Positions 7,645 to 56,706 of a stretch of DNA of 64,000 bases are shown piece by piece. The translations under genes were made by a program, and so were the position numbers. How positions within the stretch are numbered: the stretch's first letter is position 1; each line of letters starts with the position of its first letter. The notes beneath the pieces were generated by a model. The model saw only the letters and a list, made by a program, of their open reading frames with translations, did no database searches and was not told where the DNA came from. Source of the DNA: Bacillus sp. (in: firmicutes) (GTDB lineage Bacteria; Bacillota; Bacilli; Bacillales; Bacillaceae); NCBI GenBank assembly GCA_031180805.1, contig JAPSLL010000003.1, positions 117,574 to 181,573 of the forward strand, in the 5' to 3' direction.

Positions 7645-8528
7645 TAATTAGCCACCTCTTTTTCTTGCAGCTTAATGGCAGTCATCTTATGATTTTTTTT
7701 AGAATTCACTAGTCTAGGGTCTAAAGCTATTTGAAGTGAATCTGACAAAAAATTAAATGCTACTACGACAATAATAATCGCTAAACCAGGAGCTAACATT
7801 AACTCTGGTCTTGTAAACATAACTTCCCTCGCTTCATTTAACATCATTCCCCATTCAGCATTTGGTGCTTGAATTCCTAAACCAAGAAAGGAAAACCCTG
7901 AAATTTGTAATATCATTGAGCCGATGGAGCTGCTAGAAAGAACAACTATATCTGAAAACGTAACAGATATAATATGCTTATAGATTATTTTAAAATCAGT
8001 AATACCAACTGCTTTAGAAAATTTCACATAGTCTAATTCGGCATACTGCATAACTGACGTTCGAATAACCCTCGCAAACCAGGCCCACTTAATTAGAACA
8101 AATGCAATTAAAATATTTTCAAGACCTACGCCTAAAATTCCGATAATTGCCAATGCCATTACGTACCCTGGAAAGGAAAGCATGACATCACAAATTCTCA
8201 TGATAATGGCATCTACATATCCTCTAAAATACCCTGCTAAAAACCCCAAAATTGTTCCAACTAAAACAGATATTATTAATGCAGCCAAAACAGCTAAAAC
8301 GCTAGGTCGTATTCCATAAGTTATTCTCGATAAAATGCATCTACCTAAATGATCGTTACCTAACAGATATTCCCATGAGGGGCTTTCATAACGAAGGCTC
8401 ATATTTACTTCATTTGGTTCATGTGGGGCAATGAACGGCGCCAATATCCCTACTAAAATTACTACCCCAATGACAAATATCGACATAACTGCTAATTTAT
8501 CATTCCATATATTCTTTAATCGTTTCAT
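7644..8528 (-). CDS. cntC: ABC transporter permease, NikC/CntC/DppC type
   Basis: Inner-membrane channel subunit with about six helices. The N-terminus (MKRLKNIWNDKLAVMSI) is the short cytoplasmic lead and first helix of the DppC family, followed by the AP..P.E.N...R....S....LGNDHLGRC motif (here GNDHLGRCILSRITYG). The EAA coupling loop is ...YVKFSKAVGITDFKIIYKHI. Length 294 residues is usual. It is adjacent to the other permease (no gap) and overlaps the ATPase start by one base, so the operon is tightly coupled. Confidence 0.87.
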   Translation of the reverse strand: MKRLKNIWNDKLAVMSIFVIGVVILVGILAPFIAPHEPNEVNMSLRYESPSWEYLLGNDHLGRCILSRITYGIRPSVLAVLAALIISVLVGTILGFLAGYFRGYVDAIIMRICDVMLSFPGYVMALAIIGILGVGLENILIAFVLIKWAWFARVIRTSVMQYAELDYVKFSKAVGITDFKIIYKHIISVTFSDIVVLSSSSIGSMILQISGFSFLGLGIQAPNAEWGMMLNEAREVMFTRPELMLAPGLAIIIVVVAFNFLSDSLQIALDPRLVNSKKNHKMTAIKLQEKEVAN

Positions 8529-16440: not shown

Positions 16441-19020
16441 CTATGAGCCCATATTTTCTAAATTTAAAATTAATTGGTCAGCTTTAGCTATTAAGATAGA
16501 TTTCGCCTTCTCCGTTACCTCATCCTTTTTATTCTTTTGCTCTAGCTGTCTAATGAATTTTTCTAAAAACGAATTCCCTTTAGAATAAGAACCTTTATTA
16601 ATATGATGCTGAGCTTGCTTTAACGAGTTCTCAAGCTGAGACGCTAGCGAGCCTTTAATATCACCTTTTTCTACATACGAAGCTACTAAACTATTTAATG
16701 CTCCAAGTTCACTTGGCATCCAAATAGTAGGTGTCGGTACTTTTCCCCAATCCGTGTCTGAAGCGAAATAATAACTAGGATAGGACGGCTGATTGTATCC
16801 GACATTTTGCCAAGCAATACCTGTTCGATATTGGGCATCATGCATTAACGTATATAATTTTCGATCCGTTACTTCCGTACTCAAGTAAATCCGAATTGCC
16901 TGACTATCTTCCGTTCGAACAAGCAGCTCTTCTCGCCAATCTCCAAATATATCTGCTACTAAGGATGGATTTCCCTTTGTGTAGTTATTGGTTCTCGTAT
17001 TTGATGCTGTTAGAACTGTTCCTTTTTTCCAATCCTGGATAGTTGGAGTCTGGTCAATAGAGCCATTGACAATTTGTGTTGTCATATCTGCAGACCATTT
17101 AATATTCATATTTGTTCCTGGAGCATTAGTACTAAGCCTTTTTCCATCTGCTGTCCATAGACCTACCGCCCATGTCTCCAATCCTTCCTGTTCTGGAATA
17201 ACATCTCCAATCATCCCTCTACCTGTATCCTTCCCTGTATACCCACCATAAATGACCTCACCGGTTGCAGCATCTCTTAGAGAATATCCATATGGAGCAT
17301 AGCTACCACCTTCATGTACCATAAAAATCTCTAATCCTGCTCTATTCGGATCGATATCAGCTACGTGTAATGCATCACCATGACCTAATCCTGCTGTTAC
17401 ACCTGGTGTCGCACTTTCCGGTGGCATGACATCACTTGAGCTATATAACAAGGAGCCATCATGATCAATTGTTGCCGATCCGTAAATAATTTCCTGCTTC
17501 CCATCACCATCAACGTCTGCAGTGCTTAGTGAATGAGCACCTTGAGTTGTAAGGGATCCATATTCCTCGCTTGTTCCCAAGCGACCGTGCGGACCATCAT
17601 TAAACGGATTTGTCATAGGAGTCCAGCCACTATCAACATCCCATTCTTCTTTAAGATGCTTTCCATCCCAGCTATAAGAAACCATTGTTGTTCTAGTATA
17701 GTACCCTCTAGAAAAGACTGCATAGGGCTTCTTCCCATCTAAATAAGCGACACCAGCTAGGAACCGGTCAACTCGATTACCAGGCTCAATTCGGGACATT
17801 GCATAATCTCCCCACATAAGCCCGTCATCATGACGTTCATATTTATAACGAATTGTCTCCATTTCGGCTCCTGTTTCTCCATTAAAAACCGTTAAGTACT
17901 CTGGGCCATTAAGGATAAAGCCCTCAAAATCTCTTAAATCATTGCGCGCACTTCTACTTGGAGCATATACATCAATAAAATAGTCTGCTAATTTTTTCGC
18001 ATCTTCAGTAGACAATGGATAATTATATTGCTTCTCAATACCAAAGCATTCCTCAAGTGTTGCCGGCCAATTTCCATTAACAACCTCTTTTTGGGTATGC
18101 CAATTTTTGAACATGTCCACCAGATGATAATAGTAATCTTCACTGTTCATACGATAATCATCTTCATGGCTGTACCCAGCTTGTTTATCCTCCTTGAGCA
18201 TCGTAATAAATTGTTCAGACACTACCTCACCTTTTTTGTTGTACTTAATGACTTTTGTTCCTGGTGCTGTTTTAAACATAAGTTCTGATTTTCCGTCACC
18301 ATCAAAATCATATACGAGAAATTGTGTATAATGAGCGCCTGCTCGGATATTGACTCCTAGGTCTATACGATAAAGCAATGTACCGTCCATTTTGTAGCAA
18401 TCAATATACGTTTTACCTGTATATCCTTTTTGAGAGACGTCCTTTGAATTTGTCGGATCCCACTTAACAAAAAATTCGTATTGTCCGTCACCATCGACAT
18501 CTCCGACACTCATGTCATTTGCTGTGTATGAATAAGCCTCCCCACTTGGCGTAACACCATCTGCAGGTTTTTTCAGCTTTAAATCAAAGTATGTATCGTC
18601 CCAAGGTGCAGTTTCAGCGCTTTGATCAATTTCTTTGCCATTTTTAACAGCCGCTACATAATACTTTGATGTAGCAGACACACTGTCATCTATAAAGTTT
18701 GTACTATCCTTTACTGTGGCAATTTTTTTACCATCTCGATAAACATTGAAATCAACACCTGTTAAACCTGATTCTGAATGACCTGATACTTCATTAGCTA
18801 AAAGCCTCCAGCTTAAAAATATACCTTCAGAACTAGTCGCAGCAACTAGCCCTCTATCAAGATATTCTAGTTGGATCAAACTGCGTTGTTTAGAACGTTC
18901 AGTTTCAGAAGCTTTGACTAAAGGTGCTGAAAACGGTGCAATTCCAGATAATGTGGAAGTTAACATAACCGTACTCATTAATACAGATATTCTTTTTACT
19001 ATTCCTTTACCCACTTTCAT
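16441..19020 (-). CDS. Secreted rhamnogalacturonan lyase, PL11, with C-terminal FIMAH-like domain
   Basis: Cleaves the Rha-GalA backbone of rhamnogalacturonan I by beta-elimination outside the cell. A signal peptide of about 38 residues (cleavage near VKASET) is followed by a fibronectin-like start (LEYLDRGLVA) and an eight-bladed propeller with several calcium-binding DxDGDG loops (GDVDGDGQYEFF, YDFDGDGKSEL, ADVDGDGKQEI). This matches YesW/YesX, which are about 610-620 residues; here about 80 extra residues form a helical FIMAH-type tail (LVASYVEKGDIKGSLASQLE onward). Endo or exo mode cannot be told. A cre-like site is 82 bp upstream. Its products should feed the GH105, GH78 and GH106-like enzymes encoded here. 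Confidence 0.95.
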   Translation of the reverse strand: MKVGKGIVKRISVLMSTVMLTSTLSGIAPFSAPLVKASETERSKQRSLIQLEYLDRGLVAATSSEGIFLSWRLLANEVSGHSESGLTGVDFNVYRDGKKIATVKDSTNFIDDSVSATSKYYVAAVKNGKEIDQSAETAPWDDTYFDLKLKKPADGVTPSGEAYSYTANDMSVGDVDGDGQYEFFVKWDPTNSKDVSQKGYTGKTYIDCYKMDGTLLYRIDLGVNIRAGAHYTQFLVYDFDGDGKSELMFKTAPGTKVIKYNKKGEVVSEQFITMLKEDKQAGYSHEDDYRMNSEDYYYHLVDMFKNWHTQKEVVNGNWPATLEECFGIEKQYNYPLSTEDAKKLADYFIDVYAPSRSARNDLRDFEGFILNGPEYLTVFNGETGAEMETIRYKYERHDDGLMWGDYAMSRIEPGNRVDRFLAGVAYLDGKKPYAVFSRGYYTRTTMVSYSWDGKHLKEEWDVDSGWTPMTNPFNDGPHGRLGTSEEYGSLTTQGAHSLSTADVDGDGKQEIIYGSATIDHDGSLLYSSSDVMPPESATPGVTAGLGHGDALHVADIDPNRAGLEIFMVHEGGSYAPYGYSLRDAATGEVIYGGYTGKDTGRGMIGDVIPEQEGLETWAVGLWTADGKRLSTNAPGTNMNIKWSADMTTQIVNGSIDQTPTIQDWKKGTVLTASNTRTNNYTKGNPSLVADIFGDWREELLVRTEDSQAIRIYLSTEVTDRKLYTLMHDAQYRTGIAWQNVGYNQPSYPSYYFASDTDWGKVPTPTIWMPSELGALNSLVASYVEKGDIKGSLASQLENSLKQAQHHINKGSYSKGNSFLEKFIRQLEQKNKKDEVTEKAKSILIAKADQLILNLENMGS

Positions 19021-19369: not shown

Positions 19370-20668
19370 TTATTGTGCTAAAATACTTTCAGCTTGCTGT
19401 CTAAATTGTTTTGCAGCATCTTCTGGTTTCATAACTCCATAAGCCATTTGATCAGCGAAGTTCTTTAGAAGATTTATCACTTCGCCTGCTTCAGTCGGAT
19501 CTGGTCCATTATAAGGTGAACTATGTTCCCCAGCCCAAGCGACATAGTTGAATACTTGTTTTTGTGACGGAGTCAATAACGGCAATAATGCTTCTTGGAC
19601 TTTCGGAGAGCCAGGAACACCGCGATCACCAAGCATTAATTTATTCGCCTCAATATCGTTCGTTAAGAAGTCAATAAATTTAGCAGCTTCAGCTTTATGC
19701 TTGGAGCTTTCAGCAACAGACCAAAACAAACTCGGCTTTAGGAATAGGCCTTTATCTGCATTTGGTCCTGGCAAATTAGTCATTTCAAGTGGACGATTTG
19801 ATGCTTCTTGGATCCCGACAAACTGATTAGACCACTGAATAAGACCAATAGATTGTTGTTTAACAACAGGATCATCCTCTAGTCCTTTAACTTGTGCGCT
19901 TGCATCAGGTGGTTGAATCGCCTTTTCTTTCACTAAGTCAGAATACATCTTAAAGAAATCCACAAATAACTTGTCATCATCATAGCCCAATGCTGTACCC
20001 TCTTCACTATAAAGTCTTTTTCCATTCGTTCTTAAATAATAATTAAAAGATACATCTGGTGCCGTTCCTGGTCCATTTTCAAAATAAAGTCCTTCTTTAG
20101 CTGCCTTTTTAGCCATGTCGATATAATCATCCCATGTCCAATTATCAGGAATTTTGTCTTCGCCAATTTTTTTTAGCAATGCAGGATCATATTGATAACT
20201 AAGAGCATTTACCCCACCGTTAAGTCCATAATATTTATCACCAATTTTTCCACCATCGAGAAAGTCCTGGCTGAGATCTTCGGTATTAATTTCTTTACCT
20301 AAGAATGGTTTTAAATCAGCTAGTTGATTGTTATTTGCATACTGTGTAATATAAGAAAGGTCCATTTGAATAATATCAGGAAGCTTATTCGCTGTTGCTT
20401 GAGGAGCCATCTTCTTCCAATAATCATCCCAGCTTGCATATTCAGGTTGGATTTTCACGTTAGGATGCTGTTTTTCATACATTTCAATAATTTTTAGTGT
20501 ATAATCATGTCTTGGATCTGATCCCCACCATGCCATACGAAGTGTAATTTTTTCATCTTTACTAGCCCCTGAATCCGAATTTGACTCACTAGACGTACTA
20601 TTACTATTACAAGCTGCTAACGAAAACACTATGATTGCAGATAAAACTAACAGTAACCACTTTTTTAT
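19370..20668 (-). CDS. Sugar-binding lipoprotein of an ABC importer (SBP family 1), apparent ATA start
   Basis: Binds oligosaccharides outside the cell for import. The mature protein (ITLRMAWWGSDPRHDYTLKI, NWTWDDYIDMAKKAAK, AEAAKFIDFLTND) is a typical family 1 binding protein. The ORF track starts at a GTG (20629) that would remove most of the signal peptide and has no ribosome site. Reading upstream in frame gives KKWLLLVLSAIIVFSLAAC, a complete lipoprotein signal, preceded at the right distance by GGGGGAG; the codon in the start position is ATA. No ATG, GTG or TTG is available there. Either ATA is used, or the start has been lost by mutation. No permease or ATPase genes adjoin, so it must work with a transporter encoded elsewhere. 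Confidence 0.85.
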   Translation of the reverse strand: MKKWLLLVLSAIIVFSLAACNSNSTSSESNSDSGASKDEKITLRMAWWGSDPRHDYTLKIIEMYEKQHPNVKIQPEYASWDDYWKKMAPQATANKLPDIIQMDLSYITQYANNNQLADLKPFLGKEINTEDLSQDFLDGGKIGDKYYGLNGGVNALSYQYDPALLKKIGEDKIPDNWTWDDYIDMAKKAAKEGLYFENGPGTAPDVSFNYYLRTNGKRLYSEEGTALGYDDDKLFVDFFKMYSDLVKEKAIQPPDASAQVKGLEDDPVVKQQSIGLIQWSNQFVGIQEASNRPLEMTNLPGPNADKGLFLKPSLFWSVAESSKHKAEAAKFIDFLTNDIEANKLMLGDRGVPGSPKVQEALLPLLTPSQKQVFNYVAWAGEHSSPYNGPDPTEAGEVINLLKNFADQMAYGVMKPEDAAKQFRQQAESILAQ

Positions 20669-21249
20669 TTCTAACTCCCCCTTGTTCTTTTTTAATCCCC
20701 TTACATTTAATTTAGATTTATCACCTCCTCTAAAAAGCTTTAAAACCTATTGATTTTCTTTATGTTCATAATCCCTTATATTTACCTCTACTATTTTAAG
20801 CGCTTTCATAATATTTTTTATAAAATGAGACACAACTTTCTCTTATTGAATAATTCAGCACATCATTTTCCTTGTCTTTCTTATAGTTAATTTAATTTAT
20901 TCAAGAGTTGAAAATATCATGCGTAACACCAAATTTCTTAACTATGTTTGCAAAATAAAAATCCCAAGTAGTAACCCAGCTTTATAGCTTGATTGTTGAT
21001 TTTTGATATGACTTTTAAACTATTGATGTATATGAAATATTGTAAATGTAATGTTTATTTGAATTATAAATTATTGAAGGTTCGATGCTCAGAGACAGGG
21101 AACATATAGTGTAGGTTAATGTAGATGATTTTTTATCTTAAGTAGATGTGAAAATTAATGAAAATGCGCAAATTTATATGCTATACTGCAGCAACAATGA
21201 GAAAAGAATATATTAAATTGGAAATGCACCACTTTGATTCTAACAAAGA
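20669..21249. other. Gene-free stretch with one cre-like site
   Basis: Apart from the leader of the binding-protein gene and the site at 20795-20809, I see no coding region, RNA gene or repeat in these 580 bp. It is very AT-rich with scattered stops in all frames. Confidence 0.5.
20795..20809 (-). promoter_or_regulatory. cre-like site upstream of the sugar-binding protein gene
   Basis: On the minus strand ATGAAAGCGCTTAAA has the strong cre core TGAAAGCGCTT and misses the consensus at one position only. It lies about 130 bp before the start, consistent with CcpA repression. Confidence 0.6.
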
Positions 21250-21319: not shown

Positions 21320-22117
21320 CTAATTAAAACCAAATCCTTGTTTACTTAGCCATGCTTGACATAAATCTGTCCATTTATTAACGATTGGATCTTCCTCAGC
21401 AAGACCTAAGCCATGACGTCCGCTCGGGAAAATATGCATTTCAAATGATACCTTTTGTTTACTTAATGCTTGTGCGAACATAAGGCTGTTCTCAACAGGA
21501 ACTGCTGCATCATCAGCTGTATGCCAAAGAAAAATTGGCGGTGTAGCTTCAGAAACATTTCTTTCACTTGATAATAAAAGTCGCTGATCTGTACTAGCAT
21601 TTTCTCCTAATAAGTTAATGATTGACCCTTCATGATACGATTCCATAAAAGAAATAACCGGATAGCAAAGAACCGCAAAATCCGGCTTGCTGCTTTCCTT
21701 TTCAATCAAATCACTTGCACTTTTGTTACCGCTATCAAATTGAGTAGCTGCTGTTGAGACAAGGTGACCCCCTGCAGAAAAGCCAAGTAATCCAATTTTT
21801 TGTTTATCAAGATTCCATTTCTCTGCATGATAGCGCACATATCTGATTGCGCGCTGCAGGTCATGTAGTGGAACAGGATGTTTATAAGGCGCAACTCGAT
21901 AATTTAGAACAAACGCAGATATACCGAGACGATTCAACCATTTTGCAACAGGCTCTCCTTCATGATCAGCCCGTCTCGCATATCCTCCTCCTGGACAAAC
22001 AATAATTGCGCCATGTTTTCCTTGCTTCTCCAATAAATAAGCTGTAATAATTGGTTCCTCTTCCCCATTTTCCCCTTGATTATAAGGCACGTTATCCTGC
22101 CATAATTTATGGATCAA
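21320..22117 (-). CDS. Alpha/beta hydrolase, acetyl-esterase type (BD-FAE/xylan-esterase-like)
   Basis: Probably removes acetyl or feruloyl groups from plant oligosaccharides in the cytoplasm. An HGG-equivalent motif (CPGGGYARRADHEGEP) is followed by the nucleophile elbow GFSAGGH near residue 114, a DD pair (WHTADDAAVP) supplying the acid, and the catalytic His in SGRHGLGLA. No signal peptide. Length 265 residues is usual for this family. The start is TTG at 22117, 6-7 nt after GGGGGG. Its place beside pectin genes supports a role in deacetylating rhamnogalacturonan fragments, but that is inference. Confidence 0.85.
   Translation of the reverse strand: MIHKLWQDNVPYNQGENGEEEPIITAYLLEKQGKHGAIIVCPGGGYARRADHEGEPVAKWLNRLGISAFVLNYRVAPYKHPVPLHDLQRAIRYVRYHAEKWNLDKQKIGLLGFSAGGHLVSTAATQFDSGNKSASDLIEKESSKPDFAVLCYPVISFMESYHEGSIINLLGENASTDQRLLLSSERNVSEATPPIFLWHTADDAAVPVENSLMFAQALSKQKVSFEMHIFPSGRHGLGLAEEDPIVNKWTDLCQAWLSKQGFGFN

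Positions 22118-55908: not shown

Positions 55909-56706
<798 letters not shown>

Follow-up and report, generated by a model that had tools for sequence, protein, structure and literature searches.

Is a gene whose start position is occupied by ATA still translated, and if so from which codon? The question is raised by an orphan gene for a predicted YesO-type solute-binding lipoprotein (SBP), which spans positions 19370..20668, minus strand, of the window, the 64,000-nucleotide stretch of DNA analysed here, and comprises 432 codons counted from the ATA. The first-pass annotation described, without naming the strand, an ATA-opened frame with a lipoprotein signal and a well-placed GGGGGAG. We find this arrangement on the minus strand: the ATA (20666..20668) follows the Shine-Dalgarno (SD) sequence GGGGGAG (20675..20681) after a 6-nucleotide spacer, ttagaa, and the predicted energy of the duplex between this SD and the 3' end of 16S rRNA is -10.3 kcal/mol. 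The frame opens with ATA AAA AAG TGG and reads IKKWLLLVLSAIIVFSLAAC..., a normal lipoprotein signal peptide (20609..20668, minus strand) whose lipobox, L-A-A-C, places the cysteine at codon 20. Neither a stop nor a frameshift occurs within the 432 codons. Upstream, the frame stays open from 20746, that is, for 26 more codons between the preceding stop and the ATA, and this extension contains no ATG, GTG or TTG, so that an upstream canonical start was rejected. The SBP gene thus combines the absence of a usable canonical start with an SD properly spaced before the ATA. In a scan of all window ORFs of at least 170 amino acids, it was the sole convincing gene to lack a canonical start backed by an SD. 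Two other ORFs were considered and rejected: the ORF at 8528 has an ATG that abuts the ORF before it, and the ORF at 55916 runs antisense to a genuine gene.

The first canonical codon in the frame is a GTG at codon 14 (20627..20629, minus strand), which automatic annotation would choose and which would yield an unlipidated, cytoplasmic form of the protein. As the first-pass annotation had anticipated, this GTG lies inside the signal peptide: the product would begin MFSLAAC..., having lost the KKW n-region together with the greater part of the hydrophobic core. The GTG has no SD (+0.1 kcal/mol), and the best SD energy at any canonical start in the first 90 codons is -1.8 kcal/mol. Metabacillus niabensis, the nearest relative, carries the same GTG sequence and has, upstream of it, an intact ATG with an SD. 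We therefore regard the GTG as not credible as a start, and translation from it as very improbable.

The product matches the Pfam family SBP_bac_1 (PF01547; 4e-26, 93 bits for a cut-off of 26), and its closest solved structure is YesO (5z6b, 1e-119), with residues 2-423 aligned to residues 2-430. YesO (PDB 5z6b/5z6c), the solute-binding protein of the yesOPQR cluster of B. subtilis, was shown to bind rhamnogalacturonan-I oligosaccharides (PMC7596534). This full-length homology identifies the SBP, at the level of sequence, as a YesO-type rhamnogalacturonan-oligosaccharide-binding lipoprotein. As with YesO, the genomic context is one of pectin degradation: the neighbours are a family 11 rhamnogalacturonan lyase (16441..19020, minus strand; PF21348, 4e-174) and a BD-FAE/PaeX-like (pectin-acetylesterase-like) esterase (21320..22117, minus strand), with an alpha-L-rhamnosidase further along. 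Unlike YesO, however, the SBP has an ATA start, its binding is predicted, and it is an orphan: no permease ORF adjoins 19370-20668, where membership of such a cluster would call for two neighbouring permease genes. A paralog, 64% identical, is found on contig C109, where it is followed by two ORFs that are permease-type by sequence appearance and preceded by apparent two-component genes, these also recognised by appearance rather than by profile search. The SBP gene is probably partly redundant with this intact paralogous operon elsewhere in the genome.

What codon did the gene start with before? We searched for orthologs in 21 Metabacillus genomes and in the GTDB genome collection. All SBP orthologs (83-98% identical) and paralogs with a readable start carry ATG or GTG, a comparison that leaves out about 10 reverse-strand paralog loci whose start codons were not read. 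ATA is present in the SBP gene of one genome only and is thus not conserved among these relatives. Comparison with ATG in close relatives, suggested as a check in the first-pass annotation, gives a direct answer in the nearest of them, M. niabensis Q2603, which has ATG at this position followed by about 60 identical nucleotides. Since every readable relative, M. niabensis included, has ATG or GTG, the sequences identify the ATA as derived, recent and, as far as sampled, specific to the source lineage. The nearest relatives also suggest that the genus of the source genome is Metabacillus. A frameshift rescuing the missing start was considered and rejected, the SBP frame being in register with that of M. 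niabensis after the start.

The first-pass annotation had left three options standing: a true non-canonical start, a mutation and a sequencing error. The ancestral ATG or GTG bears out the mutation, and the first two options are not alternatives, since a mutated start may also be a used one: AUA likely works here at a reduced rate. An error, the true codon being ATG, is among the weaker options and appears improbable. The assembly is a draft of 119 contigs and the ATA of this gene is seen in the source genome alone, as an error would be. However, the 20 nucleotides upstream hold further differences from M. niabensis (C to A, T to G and one deletion), a clustering that fits real divergence in an untranslated leader. 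Moreover, other ATA starts of the same genome are shared with an independently sequenced species, which argues that the ATA pattern is not purely artefactual.

Has the gene lost its function? Excluding the start codon, the SBP gene differs from its M. niabensis ortholog by 35 synonymous and 7 non-synonymous changes. The resulting dN/dS, 0.047, is the lowest among the five genes compared, its four neighbours ranging from 0.12 to 0.38, and the gene was therefore under constraint in the past. Three outgroups served to polarise the changes and placed about four non-synonymous ones on the source lineage, three of them assigned by hand from the outgroup codons because the single-base rule left them open. 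From the one-sided 95% Poisson limit of 9.15, compared with about 58 changes expected under neutrality, the unconstrained share of the branch is at most roughly 16%, an approximate bound. Any loss of function is thus recent. The signs of a pseudogene, relaxed constraint and additional lesions, were not found in the SBP gene, although a loss that happened very recently would leave no such signs.

In M. niabensis, the ortholog (L044:1594-2885) carries a 1-nucleotide deletion in an A8 tract, which splits the frame into 176 + 248 amino acids and which could be a homopolymer sequencing error. Two independent changes in one gene, the ATA and this deletion, suggest that the gene has become dispensable in the source species and in M. 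niabensis, and both lineages may be losing it.

The main rival to weak translation from AUA builds on these facts: AUA would not be usefully used, and the SBP gene would be a very young pseudogene, still intact for lack of time to decay. Its orphan state, the intact paralogous operon and the independent M. niabensis deletion are all in keeping with such a null allele, as is its ordinary SD. The energy at the ATA is similar to those of ATG-started paralogs, and there is no extended SD at this gene to offset a weak codon, of the kind seen before another ATA of the same genome, that of cobA (-14.9 kcal/mol). On the other hand, the frame shows no second lesion and its dN/dS is far below 1, although a very recent loss would look alike; translation from AUA can be measured in related Firmicutes (PMC13009471, PMC13068326); and the clade has retained ATA as the start of other genes. 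We consider a null allele unlikely, while giving it more weight than either an error or the GTG start.

Work on other Firmicutes indicates what an AUA start may achieve. In Staphylococcus aureus, non-canonical starts reach about 10% of AUG, and the AUA of ccpN up to 30% in rich medium (PMC13009471). There, AUA starts are used by ccpN, infC and a lineage-specific citZ, and the SBP gene likewise has its ATA behind an SD; the citZ AUA is lineage-restricted, as is the ATA of the SBP gene (PMC13009471). The S. aureus starts were mapped by ribosome profiling and several have extended SDs, whereas the SBP SD is ordinary and its use of AUA is a prediction (PMC13009471). Among start mutants of rsbW in Listeria monocytogenes, expression followed the order ATG > ATA > ATT, that from ATA being reduced yet detectable (PMC13068326). 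The change from ATG to ATA or ATT in rsbW lowers translation and does not abolish it, and the SBP change can be likened to it. However, the rsbW mutations were selected in the laboratory and affect a regulator, whereas the SBP change is natural, affects a transport protein and has no known selection attached to it (PMC13068326).

These published reporter data, together with the further ATA-started genes of this genome, suggest that AUA works at a reduced rate here too, and we judge it probable that the SBP gene carries a recent hypomorphic start mutation and is weakly translated from AUA. In this reading, the start codon changed recently from ATG (or GTG) to ATA, while the SD, the signal peptide and the rest of the frame stayed intact; the SD energy at the ATA, equal to that of the M. 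niabensis ortholog, is in line with it. On ribosomes recruited by GGGGGAG, initiator tRNA would probably still start translation at the AUA, though less often than at the original codon; the published Staphylococcus reporters gave about 10-30% of the AUG level. The lipoprotein would then be made unchanged but in smaller amounts. The gene may be heading for loss, as the M. niabensis frameshift suggests. Such use of AUA would be a natural new example of a known phenomenon. A start change to AUA is a one-base means of turning a gene down without destroying it. It also misleads gene finders that accept just ATG, GTG and TTG, which assign such genes a wrong start; in the present case the signal peptide is deleted and the location of the protein mispredicted.

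Is the SBP gene alone in this? We took a census of 1,263 ORFs of the same genome, covering about 1.65 Mb or roughly one third of its length, for non-canonical codons preceded by a strong SD in ORFs devoid of any SD-backed canonical start. Four ATA loci were obtained: the SBP gene, cobA/sumT, a subunit of a ThrE-like exporter and mph. In cobA/sumT, encoding uroporphyrinogen-III C-methyltransferase (L170:14503-15282 (G000:C78), minus strand), the ATA follows GAAAGGGGGAG, a strong SD (the -14.9 kcal/mol given above). ATA is also found at this start in M. niabensis and G009, while other species read ATG and one TTG. This shared codon makes cobA/sumT a clean natural case for asking whether AUA initiation can be kept up over time in Bacillaceae. 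The ThrE-like subunit (L130:3856-4299 (G000:C101), minus strand) starts at ATA or at the next codon, CTA, which is where its relatives start; the site lies shortly past the stop of an upstream ThrE-type ORF and is identical in M. niabensis, from which the ORF differs by six bases and zero amino acids. In mph, a gene for an Mph-family macrolide 2'-phosphotransferase (L204:2106-3002 (G000:C43), plus strand), ATA occupies the start position and M. niabensis has ATG. Besides these, a nucleotidyltransferase-like ORF (L189:9779-10507 (G000:C61), minus strand) has a possible ATT start behind GAGGTG, common to M. niabensis, and an ATT following GGAGGTGG opens what we take to be infC, assigned from its SD and from what is known of Bacillus infC. 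The ccpN gene, sought as an additional control, could not be found.

When the census was repeated with codons unable to start, each gave 0-3 loci, against four for ATA, so that the ATA count alone is no proof of enrichment. These control hits probably come from the loci already counted, adjacent codons having an SD in common. The orthology comparison, with the ATA shared in cobA, is stronger evidence than the locus count. A comparison genome, G007, yielded a single ATA candidate among 616 ORFs; by eye, it resembles orfB of an IS3-type transposase. Tentatively, this Metabacillus clade could tolerate and repeatedly use AUA starts, in which case the SBP allele would be a natural means of tuning expression and not a defect; we hold this to be possible, and well short of probable. 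Were it true, automatic annotation would miss or truncate the ATA-started genes.

The leader of the SBP gene presents two further elements. The first, GAGGAGGTGAT (20720..20730, minus strand), is a near-perfect complement of the anti-SD (predicted -18.0 kcal/mol) that is not followed by a start codon at the usual spacing. It resembles the STAB-SD of cry3A, described as a stabiliser of that mRNA (PMC4113751). Initiation from this strong upstream site was considered and rejected: there is no in-frame start nearby, and the nearest ATG is directly followed by TAA. Each of the five orthologs compared has kept the element in a leader that has otherwise diverged, the M. niabensis copy having one change. 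Since GGAGGTGAT occurs once in the window for 0.26 occurrences expected by chance, its presence alone is not significant and its conservation is the notable part. The second element, TGAAAGCGCTTAAA (20795..20808, minus strand), is a cre-like box of the CcpA type, recognised by eye. As it lies upstream of the SBP gene and is conserved in M. niabensis, it suggests that the gene is under CcpA control. By eye, a sequence similar to the STAB-SD-like element, GGAGGTGGTGA, can also be seen in the leader of the PL11 gene located downstream.
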